Source: Thermoleptolyngbya sichuanensis A183 (GTDB lineage: Bacteria; Cyanobacteriota; Cyanobacteriia; Elainellales; Elainellaceae). From it: DNA of 64,000 bases. Both the position numbers and the translations under genes were made by a program. The DNA lies in contig NZ_CP053661.1 of assembly GCF_013177315.1 (NCBI RefSeq), positions 1,364,001-1,428,000 on the forward strand, written 5' to 3'. Below are positions 60,385-64,000 of the stretch, one piece after another (position 1 is the stretch's first letter; each line of letters opens with the position of its first letter). The notes under the pieces are model-generated. The model did no database searches. It had not been told where the DNA came from and saw nothing but the letters and a program-made list of their open reading frames with translations.

Positions 60385-60552
60385 TAAGAGGATGTTTGAA
60401 AAGTCCTACTGTTTGTAGCAAAGCGTGCAAGATCCCCCTAAATCCCCCTAAAAAGGGGGATTTTAAGGCGGTTTCCCCCCTTTTTAAGGGGGGCTAGGGG
60501 GGATCTCTGGGTGCTTAACATTACAGGCGATACCTTTTCAAACACCCTCTAA
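60385..60552. repeat. GATCCCCC hairpin element, family C, copy 2
   Basis: Outer ends AAGAGGATGTTTGAAAAG / CTTTTCAAACACCCTCT; inner GATCCCCCTAAA ... TAGGGGGGATC with CCCCCTAAAAAGGGGG palindromes. Confidence 0.75.
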
Positions 60553-60724: not shown

Positions 60725-60815
60725 TAGGACTGACGCAGTTGGACGATTTTTCGCGGGCGCAGCCCGCGAAAAATCGTCCAAAACCCAGAAAACTTACGCA
60801 AGTGCGTAAGTCCTG
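60725..60815 (+). repeat. Mobile hairpin element, family A, copy 5
   Basis: Ends TAGGACTGACGCA / TGCGTAAGTCCTG; perfect inner stem GGACGATTTTTCGCGGGC / GCCCGCGAAAAATCGTCC. Same orientation as copies 1 and 3. No clear target duplication. Confidence 0.85.
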
Positions 60816-61921: not shown

Positions 61922-62890
61922 CTAAACGCCCAATCCAGCGCGGGGATTGAACGTTTCAATTTGCCGCAGTTTGTCGTAGAGTTCGCGCTCCTGGGGACTG
62001 AGGTCTTTGGGAACCTGGATGGTGATTTCCACGATCTGATCGCCGCGCTTGCCGTCAATGGGATAGCCCTTGCCTGCCAGCCGCAGCTTTTGCCCTGCTT
62101 TCACGCCGGGAGGAATCACCATTTTCACCGGCCCATCCAGCGTTGGTACTTCGATCGCTCCCCCCAGCACTGCTTCGCTGGGCGTTAGGGGCAGCAGACA
62201 GTAGATATCTGCCCCGTCCAACTGATAGAAGGGGTGGGGCGCGATTTCGATGCGGAGAAACAGGTCGCCGCCAGACACGCCTTGCCCCTTCAGGCGAATC
62301 TTTTGCCCAGTGAGCATGGCGGCGGGCATATTTACTTCGAGCGATCGCCCATCTTCCAGGCGAATCCGCTCGCGCCCGCCCGCAAAGGCCTTTTCCAGCG
62401 GCACAGTCAGCCGGGCTTCGGCGTTGCGCGGTGTGGCGCGGGGAACCGTGTAGGTGGTTTTGGTAGTGCCGGGGCGGTAGGGATCGCGATCGCGCGGTGG
62501 GGTTCGCGGGGCGGCGGGTTCCTCATTGCGGCGGTTCAGCAGTTGGTCTACAAAGCTGTTAAAGTCGCGAAACTGGCTGAAGTCTACTTCGTCGGGGCTG
62601 CGGCTGGCGGTGCGGCTATTCCAACTGCGGGACTTGGGCGTTGCGCCACTCTGAAAGCCACCCTGCTTCCAGAAGCGGCTGAACTGGTCATACTGCGCCC
62701 GCTTGCTGGCATCCGACAGAACTTCGTAGGCCTCGCCAACGTCCTTGAACTTTTCCTCTGCTTCCTTGTCGCCAGGGTTCAAGTCGGGGTGATATTGCCG
62801 CGCCATCCGCCGATAGGCCTTTTTGATCTCCTCAGCCGTGGCGGTTTTGGGAATTCCGAGAATTTGATAGTAATTCCGAAAATTCTGCAT
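61922..62890 (-). CDS. dnaJ: DnaJ/Hsp40 co-chaperone without zinc finger
   Basis: A 322-residue type II J protein. J domain at residues 4-70 with HPD ([10 protein letters not shown]), a Pro/Arg-rich linker, and C-terminal substrate-binding domains ([43 protein letters not shown]). No CxxCxGxG repeats. It starts 8 bases after the stop of the upstream gene, so they form one unit. In Synechocystis a similar DnaJ lies behind dnaK3 (known); that suggests the upstream gene may be a dnaK. Confidence 0.88.
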
Positions 62891-62898
62891 CCGGTCTC

Positions 62899-64000
62899 CT
62901 ACAGCCATTCGTCTTCTTCCTCATCCCAAATGCCCCGGCTGCGGGGAATCTCGCCAGTTTGCGGGCGGCGACGGGGAGTGTCGTCGCTGGGGCGACCCGT
63001 GGGACGGTTATATTCTGGCTTGTCTAGCGATTCGTCTTCGTCGGTTGGTGCTTCAGCGGGCGGGTCCTCCCAGTCTCCTGCTGGTTCGCGACGGGGGCGC
63101 TTGGGCGCGTCGTCCCACGGATCGAGACTGATGGAGTCGCGGCTGTCTGAGTCAAAACTGCCAGAGTCTGAAGTCCGCAGGTTCAGTCCTTGTCGCTCCG
63201 AGCGGCTGCGATTTTCTGGGCTGCGGTTTTCTAAGCTGCGGGTTTCTGGGCTGCGATTTTCTGGGCTGCGGGCTTCTGGGCTGCGATTCTCGGAGAAATC
63301 ATTCTGCGAAGCGTCCATTTCGCGTCCAGATTCTCGTCCCATCTCGCGGGTTCCAGGTTCGCGGCCGCGGCTGGGCCTGTCGTCCCAGCGATCGCCATTG
63401 CTGCGGGGACGGCTTTCGAGGGGGTCTGGGTCGCGGCTGCGGTCGGCGGCCTCTTCCCAGCGATCGCGGGCGGGCGGGCGGCCAGAACGCGGCTCGTCCC
63501 AGGAATCACGGCTGGCAGGACGGCTAGAGCGCGACGGCTCATCCCAGGAGTCGCGGGCGGGTCGGCTAGGGCGCTGGGGTTCGTCCCAGGAATCGCGGCT
63601 GGCCGGCCGGGCAGAACGCGGCGGCTCATCCCAGCGATCGCGGGCGGCGGGTCGCTGAGGTTCGTCCCAAGAATCGCTGGCCGGGCGGCGCGGTGGCTCG
63701 TCCCAGGAGTCGCGGCTGGCAGGACGAGCGGGGCGGCTGCTGTAGGGATTGGGGCGATCGCCGCCTCGATCATTCCAGTTTTCTCGTGCCGCAGGACGGC
63801 TGCCATACGGATCACGGGGTTCGTCCCAGGAGTCGCGGGCGGCGGGGCGGCTGCTATAGGGATCGCGGGCCGCAGGGCGGCTGCTGTAGGGATCAGGGCG
63901 ATCGCTCCAGGAATCGCGACGAACGGGCGGCCGGTCATCCCACGGGTCGCGGCGGGCCGCAGGGCGATCGTCCCACGGGTCGCGGCCGCCTCGATAGGAG
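62899..64000 (-). CDS. RDSWDEP-repeat protein, 3' part; possible DnaK C-terminal extension
   Basis: The frame is open from the right edge to TAG at 62899, about 367 codons, with the 5' end outside. It is low in complexity: repeats of RDSWDEP with RPAS or RPAAR (about 63450-63900, minus), [11 protein letters not shown] units, then SPENRS repeats (63200-63300), an acidic stretch and a final WDEEEDEWL. No stop codon in 1.1 kb in spite of strong repeats, so it is coding. The acidic DEWL end and the dnaJ next to it suggest the disordered tail of a cyanobacterial DnaK paralogue; the ATPase domain is not visible. Confidence 0.6.

Follow-up and report, generated by a model that had tools for sequence, protein, structure and literature searches.

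The dnaK3-dnaJ3 locus of Thermoleptolyngbya sichuanensis

The window analyzed here, a stretch of 64,000 nucleotides (C1:1364001-1428000) of a genome consisting of one contig of 5,525,100 bases, ends inside an open minus-strand frame of 366 codons (62899-63999) that reaches the window edge and precedes a dnaJ gene (Table 1). The same frame runs past the edge (locus L005) for 1,913 bases to a TTG start codon and for 1,904 bases to an ATG, giving a full-length product of 1,001 residues from the ATG or 1,004 residues from the TTG three codons upstream. Pfam HSP70 (PF00012) matches residues 7-609 at 817.5 bits, so that the repeat-rich stretch shares its frame with an entire Hsp70, the ATPase and the substrate-binding domain both being complete, and the whole protein scores 1180.4 bits against the NCBIfam model PRK13410 (DnaK3-type), above its curated cut-off of 1019. 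The C-terminus does not carry the canonical DDVxDAEF-type motif, with which the DnaK2 of the same genome ends (DDDVIDAEFSETK), and reads DEWL instead of EEVD, while the class B dnaJ that marks the DnaK3 gene cluster lies 8 bases downstream. The repeat-rich stretch is thus almost certainly the C-terminal tail of a DnaK3, the cyanobacterial Hsp70 linked to thylakoids.

The original prediction, made within the window, had described more than 360 codons with SWDEP units, an ENRSPE block and a terminal DEEEDEWL, all of which are present (366 codons, ending WDEEEDEWL). Its headline, a distinct disordered protein that partners a J protein, was wrong; the frame continues into the HSP70 domain, so the stretch does not form an independent gene and a separate disordered one is ruled out. 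Its other reading, an unusually long DnaK tail, is borne out by the same-frame HSP70 domain, by the PRK13410 score and by a tail that ranks second among 80 complete ones. The decisive check was to read rightward for a DnaK ATPase domain in the same frame, together with the comparison with DnaK3-type tails, and it found a complete HSP70 domain rather than a start codon near the edge with no DnaK domain, the outcome that had been set against the tail. The window part of the tail itself showed no Pfam or NCBIfam homology at 0.001 and no match among PDB sequences at 0.1. An antisense ORF of 474 aa covers the same DNA on the plus strand (62234-63658) and was treated as a mirror of GC-rich coding frames.

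When dnaJ3 is started at the methionine of its conserved MQNFRNYY (62890), it begins 8 bases after the dnaK3 stop codon, the distance first given for a zinc-finger-less dnaJ, and the domain content agrees with that description, as DnaJ and DnaJ_C were the only Pfam domains found in the product and a zinc-finger domain was not found; a start at 62908 would overlap dnaK3. In the junction sequence, TAGGAGACCGGATG, an AGGAG overlaps the dnaK3 stop codon, which, together with the 8-base gap, is as expected for coupled translation. A fold model of DnaJ3 (8 rows, mean pLDDT 73.7, pTM 0.41) has its matches in Thermus DnaJ and in class B J proteins, including the Hdj1 and Sis1 complexes with Hsp70 peptide (3agz, 2b26). 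The closest solved structures are those of Thermus thermophilus DnaK with DnaJ2 (PDB 9dvi, 6psi; fusion 6prp), whose PDB titles point to studies of both a bacterial Hsp70-Hsp40 complex and a fusion of DnaK with DnaJ2.

Table 1 Features of the dnaK3-dnaJ3 locus in window coordinates.
Feature	Position	Strand	Remarks
Last 366 codons of dnaK3 (residues 636-1001 counted from the ATG) with the stop codon	62899..64000	minus	ATG at G000:C1 1429904 (L005:2900-5905)
Variable linker with RDSWDEP / DPWDDRP / RDPYSSRP repeats, Arg/Asp/Ser/Pro-rich, lysine-poor	63380..63999	minus	
ENRSPE block, 15-bp (5-codon) tandem repeat, 5.7 copies	63204..63288	minus	L005:3205-3289
Conserved tip WDEEEDEWL and stop codon	62899..62928	minus	Ortholog comparison
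dnaK3 stop codon TAG overlapping the AGGAG ribosome-binding site of dnaJ3	62891..62901	minus	Sequence reading
dnaJ3, encoding a class B J protein with J domain and DnaJ_C but without zinc finger	61922..62890	minus	Possible longer start 62908
DnaJ3 CTDI strand, residues 179-192 (from the 62908 start), candidate tip site	62333..62374	minus	Strongly conserved in most DnaJ3 seen

In eight genomes checked, dnaJ3 does not lie beside dnaK3 (L055-L057, L062, L073, L076, L078, L080); L069 is a ninth locus of this kind. Six of the eight genomes have a DnaJ3 at another site, with 60-67% identity, whereas in G008 a single DnaJ3 frame of 456 codons (57-58%) lies about 36 kb away, and G060 has only a 144-codon piece (65%). 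The use of natural DnaJ3 loss as a test of a pairing between the DnaK3 C-terminus and DnaJ3 failed, since seven of the eight genomes have DnaJ3 elsewhere.

Several further features of the same genome were recorded. DNA similarity found two more J-protein genes (L006:3908-4885 and L007:2256-2960), one encoding a DnaJ paralog (44% to DnaJ3) and the other a protein in which a proline/serine-rich stretch comes after the J domain. The gene of a third, DnaK1-like DnaK (G000:C1:3068795-3070414, L089) meets a TGA after 542 codons, with lid-like coding continuing directly in another frame; it looks frameshifted, or the assembly is in error. In the window, a perfect 20-bp inverted repeat with a 3-base loop (60739-60781) has another small palindrome, acttacgcaagtgcgtaagt, after it and resembles an intergenic element of a mobile or repeated kind, and an imperfect 26-bp inverted repeat of CCCCCTAAA/AAGGGGG runs lies at 60434-60501.

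Linker and tip in the tails of DnaK3 orthologs

The lid end and tail start were searched against 116 genomes of the class, own genome included, of which 110 matched at E 1e-8. One locus each was fetched from 80 other genomes, comprising best matches and some weaker, hand-chosen ones, and all 80 fetched orthologs are nearer to the DnaK3 core of our genome than to its DnaK2 or its (frameshifted) DnaK1. L045, cut by a contig end, was left out of the tail counts, which leaves 80 complete tails, our own and 79 orthologs. Two other rows were dropped, one as a duplicate of our own (L001) and one because the wrong ORF had been picked (L097). Twenty further loci, mostly from families with a short best match, and one more then brought coverage to 95 of the 115 other genomes.

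Counted from the lid end, residue 606 of our protein, the 80 complete tails span 53-414 residues (median 148), with 396 residues here. Even the eleven DnaK3 proteins of the same family range from 717 to 1,001 residues, so that tail length, which differs more than twofold within the family, is labile between genera. As far as sequences tell, both the length and the repeats of the linker turn over quickly between genera, and the tandem DNA repeats under our own tail are mainly of 15-45 bp.

The repeats of our tail resemble its end. Of its 15 internal tryptophans, 13 are followed by two acidic residues (W-[DE]-[DE]), as in the tip. In 5,000 shuffles of this tail such units numbered 0.83 on average and never more than 4, and the highest count in any other of the 80 tails is 4. 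The linker here would thus amount to many copies of something like its own tip, a feature unique among the tails seen; other species mostly use tyrosine in RDxY-type units, of which our tail is the tryptophan version. Composition was compared over the 48 tails of at least 120 residues, tips included. Arginine outnumbers lysine 1761:110 (16:1) in these tails, against 2520:1193 in their cores, aspartate accounts for 16.7% of residues and is preferred over glutamate, aromatic residues make up 12.0% (4.7% in the cores) and ILVM 3.6% (26.5% in the cores). The net charge of our tail is -21, and the median of the 48 long tails without tip is -7. Such a composition is that of disordered, weakly sticky regions, and by this measure the DnaK3 tail is probably disordered. 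A structure model of a relative DnaK3 (L124, 8 rows; mean pLDDT 47.5) was poor throughout, including the ATPase domain, and therefore too weak to demonstrate disorder.

The end of the tail behaves differently from the linker, and most orthologs keep a short tip consisting of tryptophan, three to seven mostly D/E/G residues, a second tryptophan and leucine or phenylalanine. Under a strict pattern (W, then 3-7 residues drawn from D/E/G/N/S/Q, and at the very end W, optionally followed by L/F/I), 64 of the 80 tails qualify, against a mean of 0.014 and a maximum of 1 in 1,000 rounds of shuffled tails; more loosely, 72 end in tryptophan alone or followed by one hydrophobic residue. Position -4 is aspartate in 75 tails, position -2 tryptophan in 62 and position -1 leucine or phenylalanine in 59. 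The 16 tails off the strict pattern comprise ten near misses (tyrosine or phenylalanine for the first tryptophan, alanine or lysine inside, arginine for the second tryptophan, valine or methionine at the end, an extra serine) and six tails of family f2 in which the tip is changed or lost (WDNDFYR-like, DPWADG-like). One protein of family f19 ends in WGNDDDDWV. Five DnaK3s of family f16 have almost no linker yet end in REWDDENW or REWDDDNW, indicating that the tip is kept independently of the linker. We consider it likely that the tip is under selection as a binding motif.

A scan of named loci, of which 80 were kept (8 DnaK3, 16 cyanobacterial DnaK2-type, the rest from other phyla by title), gave the same division: the tip is present in all eight DnaK3 loci (Mojavia, Nostoc, Roseofilum, Anabaena, Paraprochloron, an uncultured cyanobacterium, Thermosynechococcus and a Synechococcales MAG), and all 16 cyanobacterial DnaK2-type loci end in the VIDA[DE]F motif. 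A DNA pattern for the tip with its stop codon matched twice in our genome, once in dnaK3 and once with TGG in place of the stop; the backward control also gave two matches, so this search shows only that no other gene has the exact tip form. No description of the two-tryptophan tip was found in the open-licence literature, and older subscription papers may describe it.

Distribution of the tip among DnaK lineages

In a tree of 34 rows, rooted at the midpoint, 14 DnaK3 rows including our own form a clade at 100/100, apart from DnaK2 and DnaK1; twelve of them carry the tip and two are f2 rows with changed ends. A second split at 100/100 puts families f22, f5 and f27 on the DnaK3 side, with f22, which has Y...W tips, on a long branch and of unsure placement. 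At all five loci from f5 (four) and f27 (one), a DnaK with a canonical VIDA[DE]F end stands beside a DnaJ, and L107 and L116 of these families fall on the DnaK3 side of the tree; such DnaJ-adjacent proteins are possible intermediates between DnaK2 and DnaK3. Families f13 (three loci) and f29 (one) yielded DnaK2-type proteins only, and two f13 genomes and one f29 genome stayed below the PRK13410 cut-off. This cut-off is no clean divider, since f5, f27 and a second DnaK of 630 aa in G015 (f16; 1020.3 bits) also pass it. The simplest order, taken with the outgroups, would be an early DnaK3 with the ordinary DnaK motif and a later swap to the tryptophan tip, which we infer from a midpoint root. 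The tip as a strict thylakoid marker is unsupported by f5 and f27, if these have thylakoids.

Possible roles of the DnaK3 tail

DnaK3 and DnaJ3 are described as a conserved cluster, with DnaK3 essential in Synechocystis and tied to photosystem upkeep, and the protein is reported to co-purify with membranes in Synechocystis and Synechococcus (PMC7281324). A C-terminal GFP fusion of Synechocystis DnaK3 is reported to have segregated fully despite the essential gene, the fusion primer giving ...GWDDDDDDWF as the fused end, and the same paper describes the recovery of DnaK3 with Vipp1 after high light (PMC4297356). The DnaK3/DnaJ3 pair of Synechocystis sp. PCC 6803 (sll1932 / sll1933) shares with ours, as described, the gene arrangement, the tip GWDDDDDDWF and a C-terminus implicated in membrane binding. 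It differs in that the Synechocystis protein has about 771 residues, whereas ours has 1,001 and W-acid-acid repeats. The ordinary DnaK, according to the accounts available, also bears a disordered C-terminal linker with a conserved acidic motif (DDVVDAEFEEVKD), and its conserved acidic motif is reported to have fitness effects (PMC7918210, PMC8215388). In contrast to DnaK3, however, its motif is another one without a terminal W-L/F and its linker is much shorter; the DnaK2 of our genome is of this ordinary type.

The explanation that we favor, to which we give an even chance as a whole, is that of a disordered tether with a conserved docking tip at the thylakoid surface. Many weak Arg/Asp/aromatic contacts of the flexible linker would hold the Hsp70 at this surface, where the tip would serve as a specific docking element for a partner in place of the canonical motif DDVIDAEF. 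The W-acid-acid repeats here might then act as weaker extra copies of the tip, and the conserved basic CTDI strand of DnaJ3 is one candidate partner. For the tail as a multivalent tether, taken by itself, we put the chances slightly below even. An arrangement of folded domain, hypervariable disordered linker and conserved terminal peptide is likewise found in the unrelated proteins SSB, with its acidic tip, and FtsZ, with its C-terminal peptide, although only as an analogy. Several observations count against this explanation. The fully segregated GFP fusion shows that a free C-terminus is not essential, 16 of the 80 tips depart from the strict pattern, and the DnaJ-adjacent DnaKs of f5 and f27 end in the canonical VIDA[DE]F motif although they group with DnaK3 in the tree. 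Most other species have tyrosine in place of W-acid-acid in the linker, so tip-like repeats are not a general feature. The DNA pattern for the tip matched no more often in our genome than its backward control, and the disorder of the linker is judged from composition.

Three rivals place the weight elsewhere, and as all rival explanations considered here overlap, their odds need not sum to one. The linker could be a low-complexity spacer that drifts by neutral repeat expansion, only the last ten residues being of importance. The span of 53-414 residues, the more than twofold spread within one family and the tandem DNA repeats are what such drift would leave, but the composition has been kept across lineages in the 48 long tails (arginine over lysine 16:1, aspartate over glutamate, aromatic-rich and aliphatic-poor), and we regard pure drift as rather unlikely. 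Somewhat less probable still is an auxiliary client-binding tail, in which the acidic aromatic tip and the repeats weakly hold unfolded clients, as proposed for the C-terminus of ordinary DnaK. The tip matches the canonical motif DDVVDAEFEEVKD in position and acidic-aromatic character, mutation of that motif is reported to cost fitness in P. putida (PMC7918210), the mobility of the DnaK tail is described as restricted with a misfolded client (PMC8215388), and the DnaK2 of our genome keeps the canonical motif. Against this, W-acid-W-L/F is a different motif, and a linker varying from nearly absent to more than 400 residues shows more variation than a generic auxiliary site needs. We give the same low weight to a membrane anchor, by which the C-terminal region would bind thylakoid lipids directly, mostly via an amphipathic (D/E)FF(G/S)S(I/L)(K/R)RT segment just after the lid, while the tail would play no part. 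Tight binding to membranes has been linked to the DnaK3 C-terminus (PMC7281324), inspection by eye of 81 aligned rows shows such a segment in many of them, though with less clarity in f2, f16 and f22, and five hand-picked versions are amphipathic as helices, with moments of 0.44-0.59 obtained without control; the tail itself, in contrast, is hydrophilic and net negative, which argues against its electrostatic binding to anionic lipids.

A more specific rival considers the tip a bacterial analog of the eukaryotic EEVD tail, docking on the CTDI strand of DnaJ3 and thereby releasing or recruiting the J domain. As described for Sis1 and DNAJB1, the eukaryotic system likewise pairs an acidic Hsp70 C-terminal tip with a class B J protein whose CTDI strand is basic, and at site II of both proteins the EEVD peptide is reported to run along beta-2 with salt bridges from lysines (PMC11722011). 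The candidate strand (ERIRLEDGR-type) is strongly conserved in 61 rows chosen by similarity to our DnaJ3 and in 64 rows, and our DnaJ3 model places it after a strand and a helix, which at the level of secondary structure looks like the beta-1/alpha/beta-2 unit that binds EEVD at site II of Sis1 and DNAJB1; the match of this fold to the Hdj1 and Sis1 complexes (3agz, 2b26) points the same way. Our filter recovered no J protein at 20 of 100 loci, though some do have one (f2, f11, L060), and strand counts therefore refer to the other 80: an ERIR-type strand occurs in 68, of which 66 have a W..W tip, all five canonical-tip loci lack it, and in f2 strand and tip are both altered. The association is nevertheless clumped on the tree and reflects few independent events. 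The DnaJs at canonical-tip loci are equally basic on the strand (KRRLRV, QQRLRV), which makes the contrast one of pattern and not of charge; f11 keeps the tip beside a strand without ERIR, SALLKLDDGRQLEV, and f16 combines RQRLS or RHRLS with WDDENW-type tips. Moreover, the DnaK3 tip is not EEVD in sequence, its link to the CTDI strand is a sequence association, and the free C-terminus appears dispensable in Synechocystis, where C-terminal GFP was tolerated (PMC4297356); a functional fusion of this kind means that the free end is not essential and argues against terminal-carboxylate recognition. For T. thermophilus, CTDII rather than CTDI is the reported binding site of EEVD (PMC11722011). Both the EEVD-like reading and DnaJ3 as the partner of the tip are accordingly judged unlikely by us, and doubtful to a greater degree is the full version, in which the tip would be a bacterial EEVD counterpart on the DnaJ3 strand by which an Hsp70 recruits and switches its own class B J protein, with about 13 tip-like copies here enabling one Hsp70 to gather many DnaJ3 dimers at the thylakoid surface.

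In conclusion, the gene pair at this locus is an ordinary one, and its DnaK3 tail is of a known kind taken to an extreme. According to a 2021 review, it is unknown whether the Hsp70 C-terminus switches prokaryotic class B J proteins as in eukaryotes (PMC8215388), and DnaK3-DnaJ3 offers a natural pair in which to test such C-terminal switching, a question on which the 2025 Thermus structures may already bear. The division into a drifting linker and a conserved ten-residue tip is new, and it makes the unexplained C-terminus of DnaK3 directly testable by providing a small and cheap target.
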